A stretch of 20,607 bases of DNA from a virus. Both the position numbers and the translations under genes were made by a program. How positions within the stretch are numbered: the first letter of the stretch is position 1; each line of letters opens with the position of its first letter. Where the stretch lies: the IMG/VR virus record IMGVR_UViG_3300046722_000300, positions 1-20,607 of that record; one strand, given 5' to 3'. Below the pieces are notes generated by a model. That model was given only the letters and a program-made list of their open reading frames with translations, made no database searches and was not told where the DNA came from. Positions 53 to 17,659 of the stretch are shown here, piece by piece.

Positions 53-1003
53 ATGGCACTGCCATTTGAAGCAAAGCGGAAGCGTTCAGCGACGCCTGAG
101 TTGTCGCTACTCGATCAAGAGAAGATCATCGCCCGGCAGCGAGTGAAGGCCGACACCGCGTCGGTGGCACCGGCCGACGAGCTCGCGGCTTTGCTGGCGC
201 AACACAATACCATCGGGCACGTGTATCTCGAAATAGCCGTTGGGCCGGAGTGGGCGGCGGCGGCGCTGGCCCGCAATTTTGATAACCGTCCATTGCGCCA
301 ATGGAAGGTAAAGATCATGGCGCGCGCCATGACGGAAAACCGCTACGCGGACAAGCAGCCGCATCCGATCTGTTTTAACCACCTTGGTGTGTTGGCGGAT
401 GGACAACACCGATTGGAAGCTATCGTGCTGTCAGGGTGCACTATCATCTTCACGATATGCTTCGGTTGCGATCCTAAAGAGCGTGACCACTATGATCAGG
501 GCACGCCGCGTAGTGTCTCCGACATCGCGCGTGAGCACGGGCACCAGAACACCGTGCTGGCACAGTCGGTCGTCGCCATGATCCTGCGCACCGAATTGAG
601 AAGCGCCGCGCCGCTGGATCGCAACGAGCAAACCGAAAGGCTGGACGCTCTATATACCGAAAGCGAGGACTTTGAGCAGGCCCTTAAGGCATCCAGTCGG
701 ACTAAGACGCTGATCTCTCCGACCACGGGAGCGTTGGCGTTTTATCATATCGCCGCGCACACCACGCATCGTGACAAACTCGAGGCGTTCTGGGAAGCGC
801 TCGCTAAGGGTCTGCTGACAGAGCAGAATCCCGTCTGGCGTGTTCGACAGGAACTGATCAAAGATCGTAATCAAAAAGGCAGCCGTGATCTGGCGGTCAA
901 GAAGGCGGGCTCTATCGTGTTGGCGTGGAATGCGCTGATGGAGCGGCGCCGCCCGCGTAACTTCAAATGGGATACGTCGCTACGACTCCCGGAGGTGGTG
1001 TGA
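53..1003 (+). CDS. ParB-like (GQHR motif) phage protein
   Basis: This 316-aa protein carries DGQHRLEA at about residues 116-123, followed by a hydrophobic strand and a D-x-G-x-x-R element (D148-R153). That is the arrangement of the ParB/sulfiredoxin-fold family, in which the G-x-H-R motif binds or hydrolyses nucleotide. No clear C-terminal HTH is visible, so it is not a complete chromosome-type ParB. Such stand-alone proteins occur in phages with largely unproven roles in DNA metabolism or regulation. The ATG at 53 is chosen because a purine-rich Shine-Dalgarno (GAGGAG, 41-46) lies 6 nt upstream. The stop overlaps the next start as TGATG, so the two ParB-like genes are translationally coupled. 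The fold is seen from the motif; the function is inference. Confidence 0.75.
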   Translation: MALPFEAKRKRSATPELSLLDQEKIIARQRVKADTASVAPADELAALLAQHNTIGHVYLEIAVGPEWAAAALARNFDNRPLRQWKVKIMARAMTENRYADKQPHPICFNHLGVLADGQHRLEAIVLSGCTIIFTICFGCDPKERDHYDQGTPRSVSDIAREHGHQNTVLAQSVVAMILRTELRSAAPLDRNEQTERLDALYTESEDFEQALKASSRTKTLISPTTGALAFYHIAAHTTHRDKLEAFWEALAKGLLTEQNPVWRVRQELIKDRNQKGSRDLAVKKAGSIVLAWNALMERRRPRNFKWDTSLRLPEVV

Positions 1004-2088
1004 TGGCGGCGACAATACCGCACAAGATCAGGATCAACGACATCGTCGTGACGAAGGGGCGCCTTCGGGCGCTCCAGCAGTCAACCATCGATGCTATTGC
1101 CGAGAGTATCGGGGCGATCGGCTTACAGATCCCCATCACAGTGCGCATAGTCAAAGGCACGCCGCATCTGATCACCGGAGAACATCGCGTAAGGGCGATG
1201 CTGCAGCGGGATGAAACTCATATTGATGCAATGGTGTTCGATAACGAACACGACGCCCGCGTCTGGGAGATCGATGAGAACCTCGCCCGCGCTGATCTTA
1301 GCGAGAAGGAGCGCAAAGAACATATGGCTGCCCGAGCTGTGTTGATCGACCGGCGCGTGCAAACCGCACGAAAGGCACCCCCTATGGCAGACCGACGTTT
1401 TACCGCTCGCGAAGCAGCGAGAGCTGCAGGCGAGACATTCTACTATCCAACCGACCTATGCTCGAACGGACACGCCGGCAAGCGCTATGTGTCCAACGGC
1501 ACCTGCTATGAATGCCACAAGGCCAAGGTGGCGCGGTGGCAGGAAGGCAGGGGGTATAAAGTGGCCGAAAATCGGCCACTTTATACCACGGGACGTGGCA
1601 ATACCGGTGGCACCCGTGCCGCCTCGCGCGAGCTTGGCGTGAGCCGGGACACGATCGGCCGCGCCAAGATGTTCACCAACCTGACCGAGCGGGCCAAGGC
1701 GGAGGCGGTCAAGCTGGGTCTCGCCAACAACCACCACGCACTCAAATACGCCGCCGCACATCATGGTGCTGAGCTCCAGGTGCGCGCGCTGCAGACCGAA
1801 GCGCGGAAGCTGGTGGAGAAGGCGGAGCGCAAGAAGTTCCAGGAGATGACGGTGCAGGAGCAGGCCGCCGCCGCGCCACCGTCGCGCGTGGTGCCGCTGA
1901 TCGATAAGCGCCGCGAAGCAACCGAGAACTACTGGCTATGGCTGGTCGAGGAGTTTGGCCAAAATGCCTACGCCATCGTCAACCGGCTGCGCGAGATCGA
2001 TTACGGACTGCTGCTGCAGATCGCCGACAAGGCAAAAGCAGACGGCACCATCAAGGCGGATGCGCCGCCGAAGCCATCGGTGCATTGA
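1003..2088 (+). CDS. ParB-like protein with inserted zinc-knuckle module
   Basis: This 361-aa protein begins with a ParB N-terminal domain (ITGEHRVRA, GEHR at 59-62, then an ENLARADLS helix near 92-100) that resembles true ParB/Spo0J. A ParB-type HTH follows at about 205-225 (ASRELGVSRDTIGRA). Between them lies an unusual insert at about 130-200 with C153, H157, C168 and C171 in the pattern C-x3-H-x10-C-x2-C, which resembles the zinc knuckle at the start of phage HNH-type proteins. A 35-bp inverted repeat lies in the same insert. The start at 1003 is preferred over the in-frame ATG at 967 because GGAGGTGG (991-998) precedes it and the upstream stop overlaps it as TGATG. Likely a DNA-binding CTPase-like partitioning or regulatory protein; the role of the insert is unknown. 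Confidence 0.8.
   Translation: MAATIPHKIRINDIVVTKGRLRALQQSTIDAIAESIGAIGLQIPITVRIVKGTPHLITGEHRVRAMLQRDETHIDAMVFDNEHDARVWEIDENLARADLSEKERKEHMAARAVLIDRRVQTARKAPPMADRRFTAREAARAAGETFYYPTDLCSNGHAGKRYVSNGTCYECHKAKVARWQEGRGYKVAENRPLYTTGRGNTGGTRAASRELGVSRDTIGRAKMFTNLTERAKAEAVKLGLANNHHALKYAAAHHGAELQVRALQTEARKLVEKAERKKFQEMTVQEQAAAAPPSRVVPLIDKRREATENYWLWLVEEFGQNAYAIVNRLREIDYGLLLQIADKAKADGTIKADAPPKPSVH
1553..1587. repeat. Perfect 16-bp inverted repeat inside ParB-like CDS
   Basis: The arms at 1553-1568 and 1572-1587 are exact reverse complements separated by AAA. The outer part is TATAAAGTGG on the left and CCACTTTATA on the right. It is read through in frame as about residues 184-195 of the ParB-like protein, at the end of its zinc-knuckle insert. 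The RNA would form a very stable hairpin. It could be an insertion scar, a palindromic element or a protein-binding site; the sequence does not decide. Confidence 0.9.
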
Positions 2089-2816: not shown

Positions 2817-5539
2817 TGAGCGGCCCCGCGCCCTGCGCGATCACGTTCTTCACCGACTACGCCGCGGCGTCCAAGCGCGAGATGCTGCTCGAGCTCAGCG
2901 ATCTGGCGCAGCGCATCGCGGCGACCAGCGGGCCCGACAAGGGCAGCCTGCCCTGGCTGAAATGCGCCAGATTCGGCGATCTCCGTACGGCCAAGGGCAG
3001 TCTCAGGCATGACGCCAACCTGATCGCGGTGACCGGCGTTGAGGCGGACTATGACGGGGAGCGGCTCAGCTTCGACGAAGCGCGCGATCGGCTCGGCGCC
3101 GCCGGGCTGCTGGCGATCCTCTACACCTCCCCCAGCCACACCGAGGACGCGCCACGTTGGCGGGTGCTGTGTCCGTTCGCGGCGGAGCATGCGCCGGCGG
3201 AGCGGGATCGCTTCCTGGCGCGGCTCAACGGGCTGTTCGATGGGATCTTTTCCAACGAGAGCTGGACCAGATCCCAGAGCTACTACTACGGCGCGATCAA
3301 CGGCAATCCGTCGCACCGGGTGGCGCTGCTGGACGGCGCGCCGCTCGATCTGGTGGTCGAGCTCGACGGATCCGCCATCGGCAAGCCGGCCAAACCAAAT
3401 GGCGCGGGCACCAATGGCGCCGAGCACCACGGCCCGCCGACGCCGCCCGAGGCGATCACCGACAGGCGGATCAACGGGCTGATCCAGTCGCTGCTGGACA
3501 ATATCCGCCGGGCACCTGATGGCGCCAAATACTTCACCCTGCGGGATATCAGCTTCACCGTCGGCGGCTACCTGCACCTGACCGACTGGACGGCCGAGCA
3601 GGCGGTGGAGGCCTGCGTGGCCGCGCTGCCCAGCGCCAACGACTACGCGGCTGCCCGGCGCACCGCAGCGGCGGCGATCGCGGCGGGGCAGCTGAAGCCG
3701 CTGGAGCTGGCTGACCGGCCTAGGCATGGCCCACAGGGCCGCAGCAACGGCAGCCATGGCCCGGTGCCGGGCGTGCCGCCGGTGGGTGAACCGGATAAAC
3801 CGGATCACAAACCGGATAAACCGGATCCCAAACCGGATAAACCGGACGGACCGGGCGATGAGTGGATCGATCCGAACACGCCCGACGACGAGCCACCGGA
3901 TCCGCCCAGCGATGACGGCCCGAGCGGTCGCCCGATGCCGCCGGAGATTCCGGTGATCCTCTGTGTGGCCGGCGAACTACCCAGGATGGTGCGCCAAGCC
4001 GAGGCGGCGCTGCTGGCTGCCGGCGTGGAGGTGTATCAGCGGCTGCATCTGGTGCACCCGATCGTGGATGACCACGACGCGATCGCAGCCGACGGCAGCA
4101 AGACGCATAGCGCGCGGCTGGTGGCGTTCGACGCCCCGACCATGCTCAAGCTGCTGTCCGAGGTCGCCACCTTCCAGAAGTTCAACGCCCGCGCCAGGGC
4201 ATTCGTGACGTGCGATCCGCCCGACAAGGTGGTGCAGATCCTGCTGGCCGGACGAGGATCCTGGCCGTTCCCCAAGGTGCGCGGCGTGCTTACATGCCCA
4301 ACCTTAAGATCCGACGGCAGCGTATTGAAAGACAAGGGATACGACCGTCGCAGCCAATACTACATGGCGATCCCGGACGATCTGGTTCTGCCAGAGCTTC
4401 CCCCGATGCCTACCCGGCAGGATGCGGAAGACAGCCTGCGACGGCTCGAGGGTCTGCTGGCCGAGTTCAGGTTCGTCGATGCCGAGGTGGATGGTGCCGT
4501 CGCGCTCTGCGTGCTGATGACCCAGGTGCTGCGCTGCGGCATGGAGTGCAGTCCGCTGCTAGCGGTCAGCGCGCGGGCGCCGGGCACCGGCAAGAGCTTC
4601 CTGGTGGATCTGGCATCCGCGATCGCGCTCGGTCGACCCTGTGCGGTGATACCACCCGGCAAAAACGAGGAGGAGACCGAGAAGGGCATCCGCACCAAGT
4701 TGCTGTCCGGCACGCCGGCCTTCAGCATCGATAATGTCCACGGTGATCTCAACCTGCCGCTGCTCAACCAAGCCACCGAGCGCACGATGATCTCGATCCG
4801 GATCTTTGGCGTGCTCGAGGAGCTCGAGGTGGAAAACAGCATGGTGGTCTACATGACGGGGAACAACCTCGCCATCGTCGGCGACCAGGGCCGCCGCAGC
4901 TTTCGCTGTGAGATGGATGCCAAAGAGGAGCGGCCCGAGCACCGTCGCTTCAAAGTCAACCCGATCGACACCGTGATGGCCGACCGCGGCCGTTACGTTG
5001 CCGACGTGCTGATCATCGCCCGCGCCTACCTGACGTGCGGTGAACCGCGCCCTGACATTCCGCCGATCGGCGACAGCTACCGCGGCTGGTGCAAGCTGGT
5101 GCGCGAGCCGCTGATATGGCTCGGGTGCGTGGATCCGATCAGAGCCCAGGAAAGCGCCCGACAGGGCGACCCGGTTACCTCAAGACTGGAAGCGATCATA
5201 GAGGCATGGCACGCGGCCTTCGGGTTCGATGCGAAGACGCTGGCCGACGCATCACGCTACGCCACGACGCCGCCAACCAGGGTCTATGACCCCGACCCGC
5301 GACAGAACGCCATCAACCAAGCCGTCTACGAGGCGGACAGAGCGAAGCAGGAGATCCTGCTGGCCGCGCTGCGTGACGGCTTCGCCGCCGGCAAGGACGG
5401 CGTGAACACCCACGCATGGGGCAACTGGATGCGCCGCTACGAAGGCGCCATGCGGCACGGCATGCGGTTCGTGAAGGTGAAAGAGGAGGAGACCGCGGCG
5501 ACCCATAAAGGGAGTGCCCGGTGGCAGCTAGAAAAATGA
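2816..5539 (+). CDS. Phage primase-helicase (AEP-like primase + AAA ATPase)
   Basis: This 907-aa replication protein appears to have two parts. The N-terminal part (about 1-180) shows an acidic motif GVEADYDGE (D78, D80), a TSPSH motif (104-108, like the sxH motif of archaeo-eukaryotic primases) and PRWRVL (113-118). A low-complexity linker with PDKPD repeats spans about 320-370. The C-terminal part has a Walker A APGTGKS (588-594), a Walker-B-like AFSIDN (635-640) and a sensor-like MTGNN (680-684) followed by an arginine-rich stretch, as in phage superfamily 3 or DUF927-type helicases. It probably primes and unwinds at the phage origin. The ATPase call is strong and the primase call moderate, since I identify it from short motifs. 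Its start overlaps the leader ORF. Confidence 0.8.
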   Translation: MSGPAPCAITFFTDYAAASKREMLLELSDLAQRIAATSGPDKGSLPWLKCARFGDLRTAKGSLRHDANLIAVTGVEADYDGERLSFDEARDRLGAAGLLAILYTSPSHTEDAPRWRVLCPFAAEHAPAERDRFLARLNGLFDGIFSNESWTRSQSYYYGAINGNPSHRVALLDGAPLDLVVELDGSAIGKPAKPNGAGTNGAEHHGPPTPPEAITDRRINGLIQSLLDNIRRAPDGAKYFTLRDISFTVGGYLHLTDWTAEQAVEACVAALPSANDYAAARRTAAAAIAAGQLKPLELADRPRHGPQGRSNGSHGPVPGVPPVGEPDKPDHKPDKPDPKPDKPDGPGDEWIDPNTPDDEPPDPPSDDGPSGRPMPPEIPVILCVAGELPRMVRQAEAALLAAGVEVYQRLHLVHPIVDDHDAIAADGSKTHSARLVAFDAPTMLKLLSEVATFQKFNARARAFVTCDPPDKVVQILLAGRGSWPFPKVRGVLTCPTLRSDGSVLKDKGYDRRSQYYMAIPDDLVLPELPPMPTRQDAEDSLRRLEGLLAEFRFVDAEVDGAVALCVLMTQVLRCGMECSPLLAVSARAPGTGKSFLVDLASAIALGRPCAVIPPGKNEEETEKGIRTKLLSGTPAFSIDNVHGDLNLPLLNQATERTMISIRIFGVLEELEVENSMVVYMTGNNLAIVGDQGRRSFRCEMDAKEERPEHRRFKVNPIDTVMADRGRYVADVLIIARAYLTCGEPRPDIPPIGDSYRGWCKLVREPLIWLGCVDPIRAQESARQGDPVTSRLEAIIEAWHAAFGFDAKTLADASRYATTPPTRVYDPDPRQNAINQAVYEADRAKQEILLAALRDGFAAGKDGVNTHAWGNWMRRYEGAMRHGMRFVKVKEEETAATHKGSARWQLEK
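3791..3847 (+). repeat. 21-bp tandem repeat in primase-helicase linker
   Basis: Six CCGGA cores start at 3791, 3800, 3812, 3821, 3833 and 3842, spaced 9, 12, 9, 12 and 9 bp apart, so a 21-bp unit occurs about 2.7 times. In frame it encodes the heptads PDKPDHK, PDKPDPK and PDKPD. It is a flexible linker between the primase and helicase halves and a likely site of length variation. Confidence 0.85.
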
Positions 5540-5703
5540 GAATGTGTCTCAAAAACCGGTTGGGGACATGGGGGACATTGGGGAATGTTGCCATAGCTAC
5601 CCAGGATTCGCATTCGTTCTTTTTTGGTAATCTTGCCAAATCGGGCGCGTCGTTGGAAAAGTCCCCAAAGTCCCCGGAGTCCCCAAACTACCATAGGTTG
5701 TAA
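5521..5703 (+). CDS. Possible 60-aa protein with GT and SP triplets
   Basis: A GTG start at 5521 overlaps the end of the primase-helicase gene and has AAAGGGAG (5507-5514) 6 nt upstream. The product has a basic N-terminus, then GTWGTLG, and ends in SPKSPESP. The GT and SP runs are translations of opposed GGGGAC and GTCCCC repeats, so the frame may be a by-product of those repeats. No domain is recognised. Confidence 0.35.
   Translation: MAARKMRMCLKNRLGTWGTLGNVAIATQDSHSFFFGNLAKSGASLEKSPKSPESPNYHRL
5561..5687. repeat. Opposed GGGGAC / GTCCCC repeat clusters
   Basis: The left cluster (about 5561-5584) holds three G4-5 runs, two of them followed by ACA, at roughly 9-bp spacing. The right cluster (5661-5685) holds three CCCC runs within GTCCCC units, also 9-10 bp apart. 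The clusters are inverted relative to each other across about 75 bp of AT-richer DNA and could pair as a stem or serve as iterons next to the replication gene. Confidence 0.7.
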
Positions 5704-6260: not shown

Positions 6261-6545
6261 ATGCGCCGGCGCCGACGACGTCCGCGGCTGATCAGCGACC
6301 GGGCGTGGTGGGCGGCCTACAGCCGCTACCTCGAGGGCCCGGTGTGGCAGAGCCGGCGGCGGGCGGTGCTCGAGCGGTGCGGCTGGATCTGCGTCCACTG
6401 CGGCGCCAGGGCGGTGCAGGTGCACCACCTCCGCTACCCGCGGGGCTGCCGGCCGGGCTCGCGGTCATGGCTCGTGCAGGAGACCGCGGACAGCCTGCAG
6501 GCGGTGTGCCTGGGCTGCCATGGGCGGCTCCATGACCAGCTCTGA
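6261..6545 (+). CDS. Compact HNH-type protein
   Basis: A 94-aa protein with an extremely basic N-terminus (RRRRRRPR) followed by an HNH/zinc core: C44-x2-C47, VHHLRYP (H55, H56), then AVCLGCHGRLH (C83, C86, H87, H91). This matches small phage HNH proteins in which four cysteines hold zinc and the first His of the motif is catalytic. The central Asn of the classic motif is not obvious. In phages such proteins can nick or cleave DNA for packaging or homing. Here it lies among replication genes far from the terminase, so its role is unresolved. The ATG at 6261 lacks a clear Shine-Dalgarno. The stop lies inside a 10-bp tandem repeat array. Confidence 0.7.
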   Translation: MRRRRRRPRLISDRAWWAAYSRYLEGPVWQSRRRAVLERCGWICVHCGARAVQVHHLRYPRGCRPGSRSWLVQETADSLQAVCLGCHGRLHDQL

Positions 6546-6573
6546 GCAGCTGTGACCAGCTCTGACCAGCTCT
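6534..6573 (+). repeat. Four 10-bp tandem repeats across a gene junction
   Basis: GACCAGCTCT occurs at 6534-6543, 6554-6563 and 6564-6573, with a two-base variant GAGCAGCTGT at 6544-6553. The array contains the end of the HNH gene and the GTG start of the next, so both proteins carry the short sequence DQL from it. It may have arisen by slippage, and copy number would shift the downstream start. Confidence 0.9.
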
Positions 6574-6912: not shown

Positions 6913-6961
6913 GTTGACATGCGGGGCAAAAACGGTTACTAACCGAACTGCACACATTTTG
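6913..6961 (+). promoter_or_regulatory. Promoter/operator block upstream of SF2 helicase
   Basis: The 6783-6976 gap holds TTGACA (6914-6919), a perfect -35, then 17 bp and a poor -10 candidate TACTAA (6937-6942). The dyad CGGTTA-C-TAACCG (6933-6945) overlaps that position. TGCACACATTTTG follows at 6949-6961, ahead of the helicase Shine-Dalgarno. Almost the same series of blocks (GTTGACAT, GGGGCAAAAACGGT, TGCACACATTTT) recurs on the minus strand at 17154-17107, so it is very probably functional. Confidence 0.75.
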
Positions 6962-6976
6962 TTCGGAGAGCCTCCA

Positions 6977-8485
6977 ATGACCGCCCCCGTCCTTCGTGAT
7001 TACCAGGAACGCGACATTCAGCGACTGCGCAACGCGTTCAGCCACGGCATGCGCGCGCCGATCTACCAGCTGTCCACCGGCGGCGGTAAGACCGTCGTGT
7101 TCTCCCACGTCGTCCAGAGCGCGGTGGCCAAGGGCAAGCGCGTCCTGGTGCTGGCGCATCGCCGCGAGCTGATCCGCCAAGCCTCCGCCAAGCTGGACTG
7201 GTGCGGCGTGTCGCACGGCATCATCGCCGCCGGCGAAGACCGCGACCACGACGCGCAAGTCATTGTCGCTTCAATCCAAACCGTCGCCCGTCGCCTCGGC
7301 TCGTTGCCGCAATTCGACCTGATCGTGCTGGACGAAGCGCATCACGCGGTGGCCGGCAGCTGGTCGAAGCTGTTGGCCAGCCAGCCACAGGCGCGGCTGC
7401 TGGGTGTCACCGCGACGCCGGCCCGGCTGGACGGTAAGGGCCTCGGCAAGCACTGCGGCGGCCATTTCGACGCCATCGTGCTGGGCCCGACCATGCAGGA
7501 CCTGATCGACCAGGGGTATCTGGCGCCCTGCAAGGTGTTCCTGCCGGCGGCCGGCATCGATACCCGTGGCGTCAAGAAGATCGCCGGCGATTACGACGAG
7601 GGTGAGCTCGAGGGGCGCGCCGACGCGGTGACCGGTGACGCGGTGAAGGAGTTCGCCAAGCTGCCCGCCGGCACCACGGCGATCGCGTTCTGCGTCACGG
7701 TGAAGAACGCCGAGCGCGTCGCCCAGGCGTTCCGCGACGTCGGGGTCCGCTCGGTGGCGGTGCACGGCGGCATGGCCAAGCCGGAGCGGGACGCCGCGAT
7801 CGCCGGGCTGGAGGACGGCACGGTGACGGTGCTGACCAGCTGCGAGATCGTCTCCGAAGGCCTCGACGTGCCGTCGGTGGGCTGCGTCATCCTGCTCCGC
7901 CCCACCAAGAGCCTGACCATGTGCCGACAGCAGATCGGGCGGGGTATGCGCCCGAAGCCGGACGGTTCGGCGCTGATCGTGCTGGATCACGCCCGCAACT
8001 GCCTCGAGCATGGTCTGCCCACCGACGTCATCGACTGGACCTTGGACGGGGTGGAGAAGGACGAAAGCAAGAAGCCGCCGCCGCCCTGGCAGTGCCTGTC
8101 CTGCGGCGTGCTGAACGCGCCGGCCAGGACGGAATGCAAGGAATGCGGCGCGGCCAAGCCCTGGCGCTGCGCCACCACACCGATGCGGCGCGGCTGCGGC
8201 GAAACCAACCCGGGCGATGTGATGCATTGCCAGTTCTGCGGCCGGGCCCGCCCGGTGCGGCGGGAGCTGGTGGCGGACAACGCCGAGATGGCCGAATTTG
8301 CGCCCGAGCAATTCGCCTACATCCTGCGCATGGGTTATCGCCAGCTGCTGAGCCGGCCGCGCACGCAGGAGGAGCTCCAGGCCTACGCCCACGCCAAGGG
8401 GTATAAAAAGGGCTGGGTGTTCCACCGCATGCAGGAGCAGGCGCGCCAGTTCGGCCACGGCGCGCCGGACCGGGAGGTGGCATGA
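6977..8485 (+). CDS. SF2 DEAD/DEAH-box helicase with zinc ribbons
   Basis: A 502-aa superfamily 2 helicase. It shows Walker A STGGGKT (33-39), motif Ia LVLAHRREL (57-65), DEAH (119-122), TATP (145-148), HGGM (263-266), SEGLDVP (293-299) and QQIGRGMR (318-325), so both RecA-like lobes are complete. The C-terminus adds two probable zinc ribbons (C373, C376, C387, C390; then C397, C407, C418, C421) and a basic helical tail, a layout often seen in phage helicases. It should translocate on or remodel DNA during replication or recombination. The ATG at 6977 is chosen over 6914 because GGAGAG lies just upstream and the 6914 codons are the conserved regulatory block. The stop overlaps an ATG as ATGA. 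Confidence 0.92.
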   Translation: MTAPVLRDYQERDIQRLRNAFSHGMRAPIYQLSTGGGKTVVFSHVVQSAVAKGKRVLVLAHRRELIRQASAKLDWCGVSHGIIAAGEDRDHDAQVIVASIQTVARRLGSLPQFDLIVLDEAHHAVAGSWSKLLASQPQARLLGVTATPARLDGKGLGKHCGGHFDAIVLGPTMQDLIDQGYLAPCKVFLPAAGIDTRGVKKIAGDYDEGELEGRADAVTGDAVKEFAKLPAGTTAIAFCVTVKNAERVAQAFRDVGVRSVAVHGGMAKPERDAAIAGLEDGTVTVLTSCEIVSEGLDVPSVGCVILLRPTKSLTMCRQQIGRGMRPKPDGSALIVLDHARNCLEHGLPTDVIDWTLDGVEKDESKKPPPPWQCLSCGVLNAPARTECKECGAAKPWRCATTPMRRGCGETNPGDVMHCQFCGRARPVRRELVADNAEMAEFAPEQFAYILRMGYRQLLSRPRTQEELQAYAHAKGYKKGWVFHRMQEQARQFGHGAPDREVA

Positions 8486-9181: not shown

Positions 9182-9194
9182 CAAAATGTGTGCA
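9182..9194 (-). promoter_or_regulatory. Third copy of TGCACACATTTTG motif
   Basis: CAAAATGTGTGCA on the plus strand is identical to the 13-mer at 17107-17119 and the reverse complement of 6949-6961. Here it stands without the TTGACA and GGGGCAAAAACGGT parts, in the otherwise empty 9091-9252 gap. It may be an isolated operator. Apart from this and a local CCGGCCGG palindrome, the gap shows nothing clear. Confidence 0.5.
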
Positions 9195-10327: not shown

Positions 10328-10570
10328 ATGACCTATCCGGAGCTCCGCAAGCAGCTGCGTGCTGCCGGCTTCATCAACCACGAGATAGCCGCGCTGCATC
10401 ACGGCTACCTCGTGGTGCACGCCATGGGGATCCCCGACGCGGATCTGGTGTTTGACCGCGACCACGGTCTGCTGGTGCATCAGCGCTCGCGGCCGTTACT
10501 GGAAAAATACCAAGGCGCCCAGGCGGTGGTCGACTGCGACAACCACACCGCGGTGATCCGTCCGGTATGA
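10328..10570 (+). CDS. Hypothetical protein, 80 aa
   Basis: The ATG at 10328 lies one base after the previous stop, and the stop overlaps the next gene (ATGA), so the frame is part of the operon. The N-terminal half is helical and basic (ELRKQLRAAGFINHEIAAL); the rest looks like alternating strands (VFDRDHGLLVHQRSR, AVVDCDNHTAVIRPV). No motif I can name. A longer open frame back to 9947 is a shadow of the gene before it. Confidence 0.6.
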   Translation: MTYPELRKQLRAAGFINHEIAALHHGYLVVHAMGIPDADLVFDRDHGLLVHQRSRPLLEKYQGAQAVVDCDNHTAVIRPV

Positions 10571-10917
10571 GCGAGCTGCTTGATCGACCGTTGGTGGAGG
10601 CGCGACTGCCGACCCGGTTGTTCACGTGCATGAACACCGAGGGCTGCGAGACGTTGCGCGATGTGGTGGCCAAGACCGAGCAGGAGCTGCGGCGGATTCC
10701 GGGGTTCGGCAAGACTTCATTGAACCTGTTGAAGCAGATTCTGGCGGACCTCGGCCTCGAGCTGGCCAACCGGCCGGCGAAGGACGGCACGCTGCCGCTG
10801 CCGTTCCCGTCGCTGCACGAACGGCTGACCCGGATCGAACAACGGCTCGATGCGCTCGAGCGGCATCCGCTGCTGCGTGAGGTAGGCCAGATGGGGAGAT
10901 CTCAGGGGGAAGGGTGA
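10567..10917 (+). CDS. RNA polymerase alpha C-terminal domain-like protein
   Basis: A 116-aa protein whose residues 14-63 align without gaps to the alpha-CTD of bacterial RNA polymerase: LPTRLFTCMNTEGCETLRD matches LTVRSANCLKAEAIHYIGD of E. coli RpoA, and TEQELRRIPGFGKTSL matches TEVELLKTPNLGKKSL. R17, C21, G48 and S51 correspond to E. coli R265, C269, G296 and S299, so several UP-element contact residues are kept, while N268 and K298 are replaced by Thr. The alpha N-terminal assembly domain is absent; instead there is a short C-terminal coiled coil (LTRIEQRLDALE). It probably binds DNA or sigma/activators and may modulate host transcription. Coupled by ATGA upstream and GTGA downstream. Confidence 0.8.
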   Translation: MSELLDRPLVEARLPTRLFTCMNTEGCETLRDVVAKTEQELRRIPGFGKTSLNLLKQILADLGLELANRPAKDGTLPLPFPSLHERLTRIEQRLDALERHPLLREVGQMGRSQGEG

Positions 10918-12899: not shown

Positions 12900-13184
12900 T
12901 CACGCGTCATCCTCGCGCTGTTGGGCGGCCTCGGCAAGCTGCATCGCGATGCGCCCGACAATGGCGACGGTGATCAACCCGGGCACATCCAGCAGCTCGA
13001 TCAGCCGTGCCAGGAAGGTGGCGATCACCATGTGCACGGTGGCATTGCCGAACCCCGTGAACAGCGCGTCGATCTGTTCGTAAAGCTTATCGATCGCGGC
13101 GTCGTCGCTGGCTTCGGCGATCCGCAGCACCCAGCGGTCGAGATCCGCCATCGGGATCTCGATCTGGAACATCTCATCGGTCAT
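12900..13184 (-). CDS. Hypothetical protein, 94 aa, last secure cassette gene
   Basis: The ATG at 13184 overlaps the previous stop (TGATG). The protein has an acidic start, then ADLDRWVLRIAEASDDAAIDKLYEQIDALF and a hydrophobic, probably helical second half (VHMVIATFLARLIELLDVPGLITVAIVGRIA). The hydrophobic stretch is broken by charges and is more likely a helical bundle than a membrane anchor, but that is uncertain. No family recognised. Confidence 0.65.
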   Translation of the reverse strand: MTDEMFQIEIPMADLDRWVLRIAEASDDAAIDKLYEQIDALFTGFGNATVHMVIATFLARLIELLDVPGLITVAIVGRIAMQLAEAAQQREDDA

Positions 13185-13429
13185 CACGCCCGGCCCGCGT
13201 CGCGCACCCGCTTGCCGTCTTCGGTCAGCGCCAGGATGTTGTCGCCGGCCTCCAGGTCAGCCTCGGCGACGGCCGCTTCCACTTCGGTGGCGGCGCGCCA
13301 CTCGGTCAGCCCGGTGGCCTCCAGCATGGTCTCCAGGTCGGCCTGATCAATACCCATGCCTTCGGTGAAGGCTTGCCACACACCCACAAACAGCACGGCG
13401 AGGCCGTGCTCGATCTCATCATCGTTCAT
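13184..13429 (-). CDS. Hypothetical acidic protein, 81 aa
   Basis: The start at 13429 (MNDDEIEHGLAVLF) is fixed by TGATG overlap with the preceding gene, although the frame is open up to 13555. It is strongly acidic and helical, with a Glu/Ala-rich middle (TEWRAATEVEAAVAEADLE) and a basic end. Acidic small proteins of this kind are common among phage host-interaction proteins, but nothing in the sequence identifies a partner. Confidence 0.65.
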   Translation of the reverse strand: MNDDEIEHGLAVLFVGVWQAFTEGMGIDQADLETMLEATGLTEWRAATEVEAAVAEADLEAGDNILALTEDGKRVRDAGRA

Positions 13430-13695
13430 CACCAGAACCTCTGATCTGCTTCCATCTGGCGCAGGATCAACCACAACAGCATGCGTGCGTTCCCGTCGCT
13501 GTAGGCCTTGCCGGTGGCCATCGCCTCGCGTAGCGCCTCGACGCTGCCTTCCCACTTGCCGTCAGCGTGCAGCGTGATGGTGCAGTCACCAAGGTGGACG
13601 GTGAACGGAAACCACGGCGGTATGTTCAGCGTGAATGTGCTGGTGACGGTTTCGCCGCTCGGGATCGGCACGAACTTGATCTCTTCATCGCTCAT
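13429..13695 (-). CDS. Hypothetical protein, 88 aa
   Basis: The start at 13695 has GAGGGA 7-8 nt upstream; the ATG at 13710 lacks one. The N-terminal half looks like a beta domain (GETVTSTFTLNIPPWFPFTVHLGDCTITLHADGKWEG), and the C-terminal half is helical (EALREAMATGK...MLLWLILRQMEADQRFW). No family recognised. It is the only cassette gene separated from its predecessor by a gap (13696-13731), which a 15-codon minicistron bridges. Confidence 0.65.
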   Translation of the reverse strand: MSDEEIKFVPIPSGETVTSTFTLNIPPWFPFTVHLGDCTITLHADGKWEGSVEALREAMATGKAYSDGNARMLLWLILRQMEADQRFW

Positions 13696-13731
13696 GGTTT
13701 GGTCCCTCATATTGTGACCGCATTCGTTGCA

Positions 13732-14376
13732 TCATCGCTCCATGCACTCGCTCCTCTCCATACCGCCGCTAATGTAACGGTCGCAGGTTACGATCTGGCC
13801 GTCGATGACATACGTGTCAGTCCACACGCCGAATTCCTTACGCAACTGCTGTGTGGTCTTGCCGGCGATCCGGCGGTTCATCGCGGCCGTGGCCGGATCA
13901 ACGGGCGCCAGCATAGCGCGGAGCTCGGTCTGCCGCTGTGCCGCGGCTGCCGCCTGGAGCTCCGCCGCTGAAGCGACCGGCGCCGGTTTAGGATCCGGTG
14001 TAAAGGACCCGACAGTTAGCCCATCCAGCGCCCCGGCGCAGCCGCCGAGCAGGCTGAGCAACCCAACGATCAGCAGCAGGATGATCAGCCCGCGGAGGAG
14101 CCGATGGGCATACGATTCCAGTTGCGGCGGTGGCGGTGGCGACGGCTGCTGCGGCGGCTGCCCGCGTCGGTCTATAAATTCGATCTCGATCCGGACGCGG
14201 GGACTTCCTCCCCCTCGCTCGGGCGGGGTTGGGGGCGGCGAGGTTAGCGTCGCTCCCTTCCGCAGTTTCCGTTGTGCGCTGAAACCCTCCCAGAACGCCG
14301 CCGGTTCGTTGCGCAACATGTCACGCGGCGCGTCCTTACGGATCGGTTTGAGGAGGTAATCAAATTCGCCAGTCAT
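13732..14376 (-). CDS. Single-pass membrane protein with lipobox-like Cys
   Basis: A 214-aa protein starting at 14376 with GGAGAG upstream and ATGA overlap. The cytoplasmic-looking N-terminal part (1-90) contains a Pro/Gly run (PPPTPPERGGGSP, about 47-59) and a second proline tract. One hydrophobic segment follows (about 93-113, LLRGLIILLLIVGLLSLLGGC) and then a soluble C-terminal domain ending in IDGQIVTCDRYISGG and MERSECMER. The end of the membrane helix reads LLGGC, like a lipobox, but it lies 110 residues in, so lipidation is doubtful. An envelope-associated role is inferred only from the membrane segment. Confidence 0.7.
   Translation of the reverse strand: MTGEFDYLLKPIRKDAPRDMLRNEPAAFWEGFSAQRKLRKGATLTSPPPTPPERGGGSPRVRIEIEFIDRRGQPPQQPSPPPPPQLESYAHRLLRGLIILLLIVGLLSLLGGCAGALDGLTVGSFTPDPKPAPVASAAELQAAAAAQRQTELRAMLAPVDPATAAMNRRIAGKTTQQLRKEFGVWTDTYVIDGQIVTCDRYISGGMERSECMER
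14200..14238 (-). repeat. Repeat-like GC tract coding for PPPTPPERGGGSP
   Basis: The minus strand here is a C-rich tract followed by a G-rich tract (CCCCAACCCCGCCCGAG, then GAGGGGGAGG). This resembles the dispersed GC-rich palindromic repeats of many alphaproteobacterial chromosomes whose translations give TPP-x-ERGG strings. It is in frame in the membrane-protein gene. Relationship to a chromosomal repeat is by resemblance only. Confidence 0.35.
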
Positions 14377-14594
14377 CTTGAATCTCTCCTATATGTGGCC
14401 TGGAACGTGGCAAACTCTTCCCGGATGCTCTCCCACGCATCTGGATCGCAATGGGGTTCTAATTTAGCAAGCACGTAGGCAGCACCATAGGTGAACACCG
14501 ATTTGCCCATGGGGCTATCGATGAACAGACTGCCAGCGCCACATTTGCTGAGGATGTCCCGCCACGCTTCGTTGGCGCTGTTGCTTTCGCTCAT
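14373..14594 (-). CDS. Hypothetical protein, 73 aa
   Basis: The start at 14594 (MSESNSANEAW) overlaps the previous stop (ATGA), though the frame stays open to 14711. It contains ILSKCGAGSLFIDSPMGKSVFTYGAAYVLAKLEPH and an acidic helical end. The GAGSLF...GKS resembles a P-loop only superficially and is too short and broken to call an ATPase. Function unknown. Confidence 0.65.
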   Translation of the reverse strand: MSESNSANEAWRDILSKCGAGSLFIDSPMGKSVFTYGAAYVLAKLEPHCDPDAWESIREEFATFQATYRRDSR

Positions 14595-15199
14595 TGCAGC
14601 GTCTCCGGTTTGAGCTGCATGCTCTGCAGATCGATGCCGTGCTTCTTGCAGAACGCTTCGATCAGGACTTGCGCCGCCGCGCGGATATCGGGCGTCGTCT
14701 CCACCGGGCACAACAGGTCGGTCATGGCGCCGCCGAACTCTGCGTCAACTGCCTCCCGCTCAATCACCTCGGTCAGCGTGCCGTCGACAGTGCGCATCAT
14801 GTCGAGCGTGCTGACCAGCGAGTGCCGCTCGTTGTTCTCGCGATAGGTCAGCGACACGATCAACACCTCGGTGCGGTCCTCCGCCTCGGCCGGTCGCACC
14901 GCGTCGATGCGCGCCTGATGCTCGGCCTCGGTCTCGCGGGGATGCCGCATCACCGCGCGGCTCCAGGCCTCCGAGATGAAGCTAATGGCGGTGGCATTGG
15001 CGGCGAGTGCCATCAGCCCGACCATCTGTTGGGCACGGCGCTTCTCGGTGTCATCGGCCCAGCCGGCGCCGACGATCCTGACCTCGTCTGGGCAGTGCAG
15101 GATAAACATCGGCATCAGGCTGCCTTGTTTGAGCAACGCGGTGCGGGCGAAGTCGACGTCGCGCTTGAGCTGGTCTTGCCAGTCGATGGGCTTGGTCAT
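14591..15199 (-). CDS. Hypothetical protein, 202 aa
   Basis: The ATG at 15199 has GGGAGGACG just upstream and overlaps the previous stop (ATGA). It is the second largest protein of the cassette. The layout is alpha/beta: a helical start, strands MPMFILHC and EVRIVGAGW, a long Ala-rich helix region (GLMALAANATAISFISEAWSR), then TEVLIVSLTYRENNERHS and a C-terminal helical part. This pattern, with a strand such as EVLIVSLTY after an acidic loop, suggests one globular domain. I recognise no catalytic residues. Confidence 0.65.
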   Translation of the reverse strand: MTKPIDWQDQLKRDVDFARTALLKQGSLMPMFILHCPDEVRIVGAGWADDTEKRRAQQMVGLMALAANATAISFISEAWSRAVMRHPRETEAEHQARIDAVRPAEAEDRTEVLIVSLTYRENNERHSLVSTLDMMRTVDGTLTEVIEREAVDAEFGGAMTDLLCPVETTPDIRAAAQVLIEAFCKKHGIDLQSMQLKPETLQ

Positions 15200-15669
15200 G
15201 GCGCGTCCTCCCGTGTGGTGTAGGCCTTGCAGTTGTCGCACCAACCGTTGCGAATATCGTTCAAATTCCAGCTAGTCTTGTTGCAGCGCGGGCAGGTGAT
15301 GTTGATCGGGATATGATCACTGCCCGCGTCTGGATCAGTGGGCGCGTCGCGCATCACCCAGCTCGCCGGTGGGATCAGCGACGCCCGCAGCAACACTACG
15401 CTGACCGTGGTGATGGTCTGGTCGATCTCCAGCACTTTTTTGACCATGTCGAGATGCGGCATGGCGTCGATCGGCGCGGAACCGAGCAGCGCACGCGCCG
15501 CTGCGATAAAGCAGTGTGGGTAGTAGTCATTGCGTAGTCGCCGCGCCGAACAGATCAGCTCGGCATAGGCGCGGCAGACTTCGACGATGTTATGATCGAT
15601 CATAGCTGAATCCCTTTGGAGCTGATCCAGCATCTTGCCGACTGGACCTTTTGGTGTGAGGTCGGTCAT
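15196..15669 (-). CDS. Helical protein with C-terminal zinc ribbon, 157 aa
   Basis: The start at 15669 has AAGGAAAA upstream and overlaps the previous stop (ATGA). Residues 1-120 are mainly helical (LDQLQRDSAMIDHNIVEVC, PHLDMVKKVLEID). The C-terminus is a four-cysteine ribbon (ITCPRCNKTSWNLNDIR then WCDNCKAY) with the same C-x2-C-x14-C-x2-C spacing as the protein at 8538-8744. It may bind nucleic acid or a protein partner. Function unknown. Confidence 0.65.
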   Translation of the reverse strand: MTDLTPKGPVGKMLDQLQRDSAMIDHNIVEVCRAYAELICSARRLRNDYYPHCFIAAARALLGSAPIDAMPHLDMVKKVLEIDQTITTVSVVLLRASLIPPASWVMRDAPTDPDAGSDHIPINITCPRCNKTSWNLNDIRNGWCDNCKAYTTREDAP

Positions 15670-15950
15670 GGGGTTTTCCTTTGCTTGGCGCGGGACTTGC
15701 GTTTGGCTTCCGCGTTCTTGTTGGTCGAATAGACGTGCGGTGCCCGCCAATGCTGCGGTGGTGGTGGTTCCGGATATTTGCCGCGCACCTCGACGCAATC
15801 CTCGAGCCAGTCGGCGACCGGCTGCGGCACCGGTCGTTCACCCAGTGACCAGTGCCGCGTCGCGCCAGGACTGCAGCCTAACACCCGCGCCAGATCGCGC
15901 CGCGACAGCCGCATGATGTGCAGGCATTCCTGAAACCGTTTCGGTGTCAT
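15666..15950 (-). CDS. Small HTH (Cro/XRE-like) protein
   Basis: A 94-aa protein with an N-terminal HTH: MTPKRFQECLHIMRLSRRD then LARVLGCSPGATRHWSLGE. This follows the XRE pattern in which the second helix starts with LA and the recognition helix follows GCSP. A basic tail (AEAKRKSRAKQRK) could add DNA contacts. Being sixth from the end of the promoter-linked cassette, it could be its autoregulator; that is inference. The start at 15950 overlaps the previous stop as TGATG. Confidence 0.7.
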   Translation of the reverse strand: MTPKRFQECLHIMRLSRRDLARVLGCSPGATRHWSLGERPVPQPVADWLEDCVEVRGKYPEPPPPQHWRAPHVYSTNKNAEAKRKSRAKQRKTP

Positions 15951-16042
15951 CAGTCGTCGTCGTTGGTCAACAGCGCGACCAGCACGGTGGCCAGCAGCGC
16001 GGCCAGCAGTGGCGCGACCAGGGTGAACGACCAATAGAGCAT
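15950..16042 (-). CDS. 30-aa single-pass membrane peptide
   Basis: A minus-strand frame from the ATG at 16042 to TGA at 15952-15950, with TGATG overlap at both ends and a GGAGGTGG Shine-Dalgarno. The 30 aa are almost entirely one hydrophobic helix (about residues 4-26, WSFTLVAPLLAALLATVLVA) with an acidic NDDD C-terminus. It is probably a real inner-membrane micropeptide. It is too small for a typical holin; the role is unknown. Confidence 0.65.
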   Translation of the reverse strand: MLYWSFTLVAPLLAALLATVLVALLTNDDD

Positions 16043-16254
16043 CACCACCTCCATTCCGGCGGCAGATCGTTATTGAGCTCTTCGCAGATCCTATCGCAGT
16101 GCAGTGCGTCGCCGATGTCGCCGAGTATGCGGGCGCGCATGGCACGCTCGCGGCAGGCACAATAGCGCGCCAGTCGCTTCAGGTTGCGCGCCAGCGGCCC
16201 GAGGTCCTCGGCCACCATGGCGTCGGGGTTCAGGTAGGCCAGGGGGTGGGTCAT
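16042..16254 (-). CDS. Hypothetical protein, 70 aa
   Basis: The ATG at 16254 overlaps the previous stop (ATGA); an internal ATG would drop 12 residues. It is Arg/Cys-rich in the middle (NLKRLARYCACRERAMRARILG) and has an acidic C-terminus ending in PPEWRW. A C-x-C pair and several His/Cys could bind metal, but no standard pattern is present. Function unknown. Confidence 0.6.
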   Translation of the reverse strand: MTHPLAYLNPDAMVAEDLGPLARNLKRLARYCACRERAMRARILGDIGDALHCDRICEELNNDLPPEWRW

Positions 16255-16472
16255 GGGTTGTTATCCATGGCCACCCGGGTGCGCCGGGCCAGCCCGGCCC
16301 CGGTGGCGAGGCGCAGGGCGCGCGCCAGAGCCTCGGGCCACTCGATGGTCTTGGAGGCCACCCAGCGGCCGTCCAGGCGCCACTCGCCGCCGTGCTGCGC
16401 CAGCCAGTGCAGTTGGTCGTCGATCTTGATCGAGAAGCCGAAGCTCGACTCCGCGGTGATCTCGAGGTTCAT
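16251..16472 (-). CDS. Hypothetical protein, 73 aa
   Basis: The ATG at 16472 overlaps the previous stop (ATGA). The N-terminal half looks like a beta sheet (LEITAESSFGFSIKIDDQLHW), followed by GEWRLDGRWVASKTIEW and a basic helix. It ends in VAMDNNP. It could be a small beta-barrel or a binding protein; no family recognised. Confidence 0.6.
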   Translation of the reverse strand: MNLEITAESSFGFSIKIDDQLHWLAQHGGEWRLDGRWVASKTIEWPEALARALRLATGAGLARRTRVAMDNNP

Positions 16473-16696
16473 GGCTCGAGCTCCTCCCGCCCGGCCAGCT
16501 TGACCGCCGCGGCGCTGACCGCCTCCTGCTCGGTGGCGTCGGGCAGCCCAACGAGGCGGGCGTAGCCGAGCGCGACCGAGAAGCCGACCAGGAAGGCGCA
16601 GGACTGGCCCGCGCCGGGGCTGTGCTCGTTGAACTTGGTCAGGGCCATGCGCGCGAAGCGCAATGCTTCCGGGGTGAAGTCTTTGCGCTTGGTCAT
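16469..16696 (-). CDS. Hypothetical protein, 75 aa
   Basis: The start at 16696 (MTKRKDFTPEALRFA) overlaps the previous stop (TGATG), although the frame is open to 16813. It is helical, with a small-residue hydrophobic middle (SCAFLVGFSVALGYARLVGL). That middle is broken by Tyr and Arg, so a membrane helix is possible but not secure. Function unknown. Confidence 0.6.
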   Translation of the reverse strand: MTKRKDFTPEALRFARMALTKFNEHSPGAGQSCAFLVGFSVALGYARLVGLPDATEQEAVSAAAVKLAGREELEP

Positions 16697-16866
16697 CACG
16701 CGATCCCTTCGTTCAGATCTTTGGCCGCCAGCTTGGCCAGATACTCGGCGACATCCCACTCGCCGTTCTTGACCACGAAGCTGCTGACCTTCGTGTCGGT
16801 GGACAGGCGCCAAACCTCAAACGCGGGGACCGGGGTGAGCCGGCAGCGCACGTAAAAATCGCTCAT
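16696..16866 (-). CDS. Hypothetical protein, 56 aa
   Basis: The ATG at 16866 overlaps the previous stop (ATGA); the rest of the open frame up to 16974 is a shadow. A start such as MSDFYVRCRLTPVPAFEVW suggests strands, and FVVKNGEWDVAEYLAKLAAKDL a strand then a helix. Small single-domain protein; no family recognised. Confidence 0.6.
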   Translation of the reverse strand: MSDFYVRCRLTPVPAFEVWRLSTDTKVSSFVVKNGEWDVAEYLAKLAAKDLNEGIA

Positions 16867-17096
16867 GCCACGCACTCCGCGTCGCCGGACGCCAGCTCGA
16901 TCATCTCGTTGGTGATCGCGTCCGCCAGCACGCTGTGGTGCTTCGCCTTGGCGTCGTAGCCAACTTCCGCCCACAGCCGGGCGGCGAGGTGGTGCTGGGT
17001 GGCGGCGGTTGACAGCCGCTCGTCGATGTAGGCGCTGCTCGCCGCGGCGGAGACCGCCAAAGCGAGATTCAACAGATCAGTGCGAGAGAAGGTCAT
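16863..17096 (-). CDS. First gene of minus-strand cassette, 77 aa
   Basis: The start at 17096 (MTFSRTDLLNLALAV) has GGAG upstream. A frame back to 17156 is open only because it reads through the conserved regulatory block. The protein is helical throughout and rich in Ala, with HHLAARLWAEVGYDAKAKHHSVLADAITNEM in the middle. I recognise no domain. Being first after the promoter it should be the most strongly expressed of the fourteen. Confidence 0.65.
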   Translation of the reverse strand: MTFSRTDLLNLALAVSAAASSAYIDERLSTAATQHHLAARLWAEVGYDAKAKHHSVLADAITNEMIELASGDAECVA

Positions 17097-17106
17097 CGAG
17101 GGACTC

Positions 17107-17154
17107 CAAAATGTGTGCACCCTCCTTGTGACCGTTTTTGCCCCAGATGTCAAC
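17107..17154 (-). promoter_or_regulatory. Promoter/operator block for minus-strand cassette
   Basis: Read on the minus strand it contains TTGACA (17153-17148), then TCTGGGGCAAAAACGGT, then TGCACACATTTTG (17119-17107), just before the cassette's first gene. These blocks match 6913-6961 in the same order and spacing to within one base; the intervening bases differ, so selection on function is likely. No convincing -10 is visible. This divergent gap also serves the plus-strand packaging genes, for which I see no clear promoter. Confidence 0.75.
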
Positions 17155-17170: not shown

Positions 17171-17659
17171 ATGTCGAACCAATACGCCGCGTTGATGCGG
17201 GAGGGCGGCAAGCTGCCGCCGGAGGCCAAGGGCCCGGACGGACGGCTCGAGCCGTTCGTGCCGAGCGATAAGGAGCGCGAGCAGGTGCGGATCCTGGCCA
17301 GCAACGGGGTCGCCCACCAGACCATCAGCAAGGTGCTCGACATCGCCAACCACACCCTGACGAAGCACTTCCACCAGGAGCTGGAAGACGGCCGCGACAT
17401 GGTCACCGCCAAGATGGGCTTCGCCCTGGTGACCGAGGGCTTCGCCGGCAACGTGGCGGCGATCAAATACTGGCTGCTGACCCGCGGCGGGCCGGAGTGG
17501 AAGCTGACCGCGGCCGACATGCGCGGGCTCGATCCGTTCGCCGAAGCGCGCGAAACCGTTCATTTCTTCATGCCATCGAACGGCCGCGACAAGCCGGAGG
17601 CGATCGAACCCGAGCCCGGGCCGCCGACCATCGACGGCAAGGCGGAGGAGGCGGCGTGA
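17171..17659 (+). CDS. terS: Small terminase subunit (probable)
   Basis: A 162-aa protein starting at ATG 17171 with AAGGGG about 9 nt upstream; an earlier TTG at 17138 would overlap the regulatory block. It has an HTH-like segment reading ILASNGVAHQTISKVLDIA then NHTLTKHFHQEL, the layout of phage small terminases that recognise packaging sites, and a central helical region (KMGFALVTEGFAGNVAAIKYW) that fits the oligomerisation domain. The C-terminus is acidic and Pro-rich. Its position just before the large terminase supports the call. The family is inferred from pattern, not alignment. Confidence 0.7.
   Translation: MSNQYAALMREGGKLPPEAKGPDGRLEPFVPSDKEREQVRILASNGVAHQTISKVLDIANHTLTKHFHQELEDGRDMVTAKMGFALVTEGFAGNVAAIKYWLLTRGGPEWKLTAADMRGLDPFAEARETVHFFMPSNGRDKPEAIEPEPGPPTIDGKAEEAA

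Follow-up and report, generated by a model that had tools for sequence, protein, structure and literature searches.

A candidate early regulon in an uncultured phage: two host-type promoters with a predicted phage-specific operator in the spacer

Genes and shared blocks at the two sites

The stretch of DNA analysed here (the window, 20,607 nucleotides) is an incomplete virus fragment of 20.6 kb with 65% G+C. The plus strand includes genes for ParB-like, primase-like, helicase and alpha-CTD-like proteins, and a GcrA-like match below the threshold. Megablast of the whole window against phage records gave zero matches, and a terminase search across bacterial genomes returned distant relatives only. 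The sequence GANTC is depleted throughout the window (35 observed, 80 expected from shuffles), which is compatible with avoidance of methylation or restriction sites. The primase-like protein contains a DKPDxKP linker encoded by three 21-bp tandem repeats (3789-3851, plus strand). A small gene with HNH-like sequence ends in overlapping 10-bp direct repeats (TGACCAGCTC, 6533-6572, plus strand).

Three blocks, GTTGACAT, GGGGCAAAAACGGT and TGCACACATTTT, occur in this order at 6913-6961 on the plus strand (site A) and at 17154-17107 on the minus strand (site B). Read along its own strand, site A is GTTGACAT-GC-GGGGCAAAAACGGT-TACTAACCGAAC-TGCACACATTTT and site B is GTTGACAT-CT-GGGGCAAAAACGGT-CACAAGGAGGG-TGCACACATTTT. 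The blocks are exact whereas the linker bases between them have diverged. This agrees with the original prediction, and so does the order of the blocks. The spacing, described as identical, is only nearly the same, with 12 nt between GGGGCAAAAACGGT and TGCACACATTTT at A and 11 nt at B. With the base composition of the window, chance alone would give about 1.5e-4 pairs that agree in the 22 fixed letters of blocks one and two. Apart from A and B, no further copy of GGGGCAAAAACGGT with up to one mismatch is present in the whole record. For TGCACACATTTTG there is a third exact copy, which had been missed earlier; it lies in a hairpin of -24.7 kcal/mol (plus-strand fold).

Both sites are located directly ahead of gene starts, as had been claimed. 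The helicase ATG (6977) lies downstream of site A and the ATG of the first cassette gene (17096) downstream of site B. From 17171 the terminase genes (small and large) are oriented rightward, and from 17096 the cassette extends leftward; thus, the cassette begins behind B and the helicase unit behind A (Table 1). Among the cassette proteins scanned, none gave a functional family. The gene content immediately behind B varies: one cassette gene (16696-16866, minus strand) is absent from the near-identical contigs L003 and L006, in which promoter B is invariant.

Table 1. Coordinates of genes, promoter elements and repeats in the window.
Feature	Position	Strand	Details
ParB-like protein	967-2088	+	gene inside the window
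Core promoter A	6914-6942	+	-35 TTGACA 6914-6919; 17-nt spacer; -10 TACTAA 6937-6942
Spacer block GGGGCAAAAACGGT at A, proposed operator	6923-6936	+	exact repeat at A and B only
Inverted repeat CCGAAC-TGCACACATTTT-GTTCGG	6943-6966	+	surrounds the presumed start; 3' arm overlaps Shine-Dalgarno GGAG 6965-6968
Start/leader block TGCACACATTTTG at A	6949-6961	+	block TGCACACATTTT proper at 6949-6960
Superfamily II DNA helicase gene, behind A	6977-8485	+	PHROG 16, E 7e-94; Pfam ResIII and Helicase_C
Third copy of TGCACACATTTTG	9182-9194	-	inside a strong intergenic hairpin, no promoter nearby
Leftward cassette from B, about 13 small genes	12900-17096	-	from ORF lists; first gene 17096-16863
Candidate reader of the spacer blocks: 94-aa helix-turn-helix protein, Aca-like	15666-15950	-	encoded in the B cassette
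Start/leader block at B, GAGGG-TGCACACATTTTGGAGT-CCCTC	17098-17124	-	Shine-Dalgarno GGAG 17107-17104 in a possible short stem
Block TGCACACATTTT at B	17108-17119	-	
Core promoter B	17125-17153	-	-35 TTGACA 17153-17148; 17-nt spacer; -10 CACAAG 17130-17125
Spacer block GGGGCAAAAACGGT at B, proposed operator	17131-17144	-	exact repeat at A and B only
Small terminase gene, divergent from B	17171-17659	+	PHROG 309, E 7.5e-5; neighbour conserved in L060

Core promoters and the spacer block in related phages

The arrangement of a sigma70-type promoter, TTGACA and a -10 hexamer at a distance of 17 nt ahead of a gene start, is present at both sites. The 17 bp noted earlier separate TTGACA from the -10 hexamer, which is TACTAA at A and CACAAG at B. 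Neither A nor B was detected by a strict E. coli-type promoter scan because each of these hexamers matches TATAAT at only three of six positions. By the E. coli standard the claim that no good -10 follows is right. The two hexamers nevertheless fit the relatives, whose promoters combine TTGACA and a spacing of 17-18 nt with -10 hexamers such as CATAAG, TATAAG, TATGAG and TACTTC. A matrix trained on other phages ranked B first (18.0) and A second (17.3), the next site in the window scoring 14.3; its training sites were hand-picked with shared leaders and fixed spacings as a guide, and the matrix, although the window was left out, is not fully blind. Promoter B is invariant across five contigs.

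In many unrelated phages, GCACACA is found just 3' of the -10 and ahead of GGAG-ATG, behind a perfect TTGACA-17-TATAAT. That scan was pre-selected for the pattern, and its information therefore lies in the surplus of -10 hexamers with the consensus rather than in the number of matches. The occurrence of GCACACA at consensus promoters of unrelated phages argues for a start or leader sequence and not for the box of a dedicated factor, and the downstream block is best read as transcription start plus leader.

The frame of TTGACA, 17-18 nt, weak -10, start region and Shine-Dalgarno sequence is also present in relatives, ahead of the orthologous helicase and of the first cassette gene. The helicase promoter is TTGACA-17-CATAAG in L008-L010 (helicases 69% identical) and in G005, TTGACA-17-TATGAG in G011 and TTGACA-17-CTATGG in L285. 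Homologs of the first cassette gene in G005 (38%) and G011 (52%) lie directly downstream of composite promoters, the one in G005 being TTGATT-17-CATAAG. The L060 promoter orthologous to B adjoins the small terminase gene; TTGACA and GAGGGxGCACACA are kept and the spacer is different.

Within one phage the spacer block is reused. In G005, TGATG-N3-CATCA/CATAA is found at four promoters. In G011, TAGTGCGCCA or close variants are present at 5692, 7619, 8856, 12163 (one mismatch), 15935 and 21371 (two mismatches). The copy at 7619 belongs to the gene homologous to the first one of the cassette, that at 15935 to the helicase homolog (54.6%) and that at 21371 to a homolog of window gene 53-1003. From the last of these, a third GGGGCAAAAACGGT ahead of gene 53-1003 is predicted for the complete genome of the window phage. 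At the helicase of L285 and L293 the spacer is different again and has dyad symmetry. Several of the relatives' blocks are palindromic with a 3-nt centre (TGATG-N3-CATCA, TAGTG-CGC-CACTA). Unlike most of the relatives' blocks, the window block GGGGCAAAAACGGT is not a palindrome. Exact block scans in other phages matched site B only in near-identical contigs of the same phage. The search of related phages proposed earlier showed conservation for the promoter frame and not for the spacer block itself, of which each relative has its own.

A block that varies between phages and is common to the promoters within one phage behaves like an operator, and GGGGCAAAAACGGT is most likely a phage-specific operator, as predicted from these comparisons. 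The proposal that the A and B units form one regulon gains from the same data: the orthologous helicase and first cassette gene of G011 share one block, which occurs at up to six promoters, and the pattern is repeated in G005. The similarity of A and B could instead date back to a promoter that was duplicated long ago, without any regulator in common, given that there are two copies only and both are promoters. This is very unlikely, as the blocks are exact while the linkers diverged, and in other phages a block of their own recurs at many promoters.

Repeated or perfectly palindromic blocks in the TTGACA/-10 spacer were also observed in L246, L249 and related contigs, which belong to unrelated phages (in L249 the palindrome is AGATGCTGATCAGCATCT). 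Judged by these sequences, promoters with an operator in the spacer look common. The entire helicase promoter of L285 lies between the 8-bp arms of an inverted repeat, TCTGGTTT/AAACCAGA (1375-1470, plus strand). Two simpler markers were discarded: GGGGCAAAAACGGTNAC alone matched unrelated, mostly non-promoter DNA, and matches of TTGACA-N-TGCACACATTTTG in AT-rich contigs looked coincidental.

An inverted repeat around the presumed start

At site A, the arms CCGAAC and GTTCGG surround TGCACACATTTT. The 5' arm lies between the -10 and the expected start and, therefore, the stem would be formed by read-through RNA only. The RNA fold of this site with the 5' arm has -7.7 kcal/mol, and most of the stability is lost without that arm. 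The arms at the helicase site of G011, CCGGAC-TGCACACATTCT-GTCCGG, differ from those of A by one compensatory pair. The arms at the G005 helicase site are CTGAGGAG/CTCCTCAG. The arrangement at G011 8856, GGGAAG-GCACACACTCCTTGGAGT-CTTCCC, is similar to that at B, where the stem is weak (fold z-score -0.5). Across 58 promoters, some of them homologous and many without a stem, the mean stem is 3.60 compared with 3.26 (sd 0.10) in partner-swapped controls, and stems of at least 5 were observed 14 times with 4.7 expected.

A start-site hairpin as at T4 gene e may account for these features. The stem would hide the Shine-Dalgarno sequence in read-through RNA, whereas RNA initiated at A would be devoid of the 5' arm and translated freely; such a control could add to an operator. 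The compensatory pair between A and G011, the G005 helicase stem, the loss of fold stability without the 5' arm and the excess over the swapped controls all favour this explanation, for which the T4 leader hairpins of gene e, soc, 49 and I-TevI are a precedent (PMC3014915). In these, the 5' arm of the stem is placed in the promoter and is absent from promoter-initiated RNA, and the 3' arm overlaps the ribosome-binding site. With the predicted start, this geometry fits A and the G011 helicase site and is weak at B. The promoters described here differ from those of T4 in being early-type host promoters instead of late ones and in that the stem, itself a prediction from sequence, is missing at some members of the family. 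Several family promoters are stemless, the tested set includes homologous sites, and upstream of B, with its weak stem, there is no co-directional gene. Hairpin control is thus a possible but improbable explanation of the shared blocks, and as the sole reason for the block an RNA hairpin was rejected because of its weakness at B. The inverted repeat is possibly a second layer of control, with weaker support than the operator has. On the minus strand, site A also has a stem resembling a terminator; it was rejected, being within chance numbers and having no counterpart at B.

Candidate readers of the spacer block and the proposed regulon

The original prediction assigned the blocks to a dedicated activator or sigma-like factor, perhaps the alpha-CTD-like or the GcrA-like protein, acting on promoters with weak -10 hexamers. 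Because of these hexamers a smaller chance remains for an activator, and the window does encode an alpha-CTD domain (E 9e-11), next to the GcrA-like match below the cut-off. A sigma-like factor, however, is not suggested by a core that fits the sigma70-type promoters of relatives (-10 CATAAG, TATAAG, TATGAG) and that the matrix from other phages places at the top of the window. Relatives that retain the promoter design have no convincing alpha-CTD-like or GcrA-like match. The shared blocks are located within the core promoter, 3' of the -35, and not upstream in the binding position of an alpha-CTD; upstream of the two sites the flanking sequences are dissimilar. In L006 the alpha-CTD domain has strongly diverged, yet site B is unchanged. 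GcrA has been described as a sigma70 cofactor at methylated promoters (PMC7987155). A methylatable GANTC is present at B only (17102-17106) and none lies within 1 kb of A, so that a GcrA/CcrM-dependent promoter was rejected. Furthermore, the palindromic spacer blocks of relatives suit repressors. Control of these promoters by such an activator is quite unlikely. The alpha-CTD-like proteins of the window (10567-10917, plus strand) and of L006 (143-490) are 65% identical overall, with an identical C-terminal half and a diverged N-terminal domain, as if the alpha-CTD domain had been swapped.

A more probable reader of GGGGCAAAAACGGT is the helix-turn-helix (HTH) protein of the B cassette. Its AlphaFold model has a pLDDT of ~90 over residues 1-58, and the best Foldseek matches in the PDB are Aca2 and Aca1 at modest E-values of 0.02-0.1, headed by Aca2 chains (7ezy, 1.2 Å over 59 columns, E 0.024). 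Sequence matches point in the same direction (phmmer Aca2, E 0.028; PHROG transcriptional repressor, E 0.002), while the Pfam match is weak (HTH_31, E 0.008, below the cut-off). Homologs are encoded in the same cassette of L060 (40%) and G011 (48%); among 385 genomes of one bacterial class, the only match was a weak one. The homologs of L060 (2759-3169, minus strand) and L280 (8410-8856, plus strand) have a C-terminal extension that is absent from the window protein.

The recognition helix and the operator were compared in three phages: RLTREWATGASSVP occurs with GGTGGGCCACC in L060, RLTREWATGASPVP with AGTGCGCCACT in G011 and GATRHWSLGERPVP with GGGGCAAAAACGGT in the window. L060 and G011 have a near-identical recognition helix (RLTREWATGAS-VP) and share the operator core GTG-[CG]GC-CAC; in the window both helix and operator differ from these. 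The cassette of G005 encodes an unrelated HTH protein (PF01381, E 0.0014, below the cut-off) and the operator is different.

Alternatively, the operator might be read by another protein: the ParB-like protein, a repressor encoded outside the record or a host factor. The asymmetry of GGGGCAAAAACGGT, the presence of the ParB-like gene in the window and in G011 (69%) and the fragmentary nature of the 20.6-kb record are in line with this alternative. The ParB-like protein, however, is conserved at 69% in G011 despite a wholly different operator, whereas the HTH helix changes with the operator. This co-variation, in three phages and short of proof, points to the HTH protein as the candidate reader in preference to the ParB-like protein, and a reader other than the HTH protein is rather unlikely.

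The most satisfactory reading of sites A and B is an early regulon whose operator is specific to the phage; systems of this kind are known, and the members are new. Both would be early promoters used by the sigma70-type RNA polymerase of the host, with GGGGCAAAAACGGT between -35 and -10 as the operator. A regulator bound to GGGGCAAAAACGGT would exclude the polymerase and thereby switch off two units together, the helicase unit for replication and the accessory cassette that runs leftward. The most likely regulator is the 94-aa Aca-like HTH protein; B would then be under autoregulation, and A would be an additional target. TGCACACATTTT coincides with the predicted start of transcription, near 6949-6952 in A and 17119-17116 in B, and would give the 5' leader that precedes the Shine-Dalgarno sequence. 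We infer all functional steps, i.e. binding, repression, start sites and timing, from the repeats and their placement, the conserved frame, the phage-specific spacer block and the helix/operator co-variation in three phages. The probability of this reading as a whole is roughly 0.6. Against it stand the asymmetry of GGGGCAAAAACGGT, which is unlike known Aca sites, the -10 hexamers with three of six matches, the weak HTH family match, a co-variation that covers three phages and the unrelated HTH protein of G005. An unlikely, more elaborate version is a switch of two layers, in which the spacer operator would stop transcription and the start-site repeat would lock read-through translation, both being reused regulon-wide and operator and recognition helix being exchanged jointly between related phages.

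According to published work, Aca proteins repress a promoter by attaching to a site within its core (PMC9410906; also PMC8434428). The predicted regulon resembles the Aca1 and Aca2 autorepressors and their operators in having a small HTH protein whose fold is nearest to these two, encoded in an early operon of accessory genes behind B, and in the position of the site inside a host-type core promoter. The differences are the weak sequence similarity, the asymmetric block, the helicase as a second target and a scan of cassette proteins for functional families that identified no known anti-CRISPR gene. The Aca site is an inverted repeat in the core promoter whereas GGGGCAAAAACGGT, in the same place, is non-palindromic; therefore, the system is said to work like an Aca system and is not classified as one. 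The Start-Associated Sequences (SAS) of cluster K mycobacteriophages and their extended form (PMC3203893) likewise recur as short conserved sequences just ahead of genes, and the upstream repeat that accompanies them varies from subcluster to subcluster. The blocks described here, in contrast, align with a -35/-10 promoter and the presumed start, and their sequences are unrelated to GGGATAGGAGCCC. Membership in this group was rejected by inspection, the start block TGCACACATTTTG being unrelated to the GGGATAGGAGCCC-like 13-mer.

In place of the special factor that had been guessed, the comparison points to a regulon design found in several uncultured phages, in which the same promoters carry an exchangeable operator. 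If the co-variation of helix and operator holds true, the pairing of repressor and promoter would be predictable from sequence alone. Likewise, an accessory cassette under Aca-like control would be a place to seek counter-defence genes.
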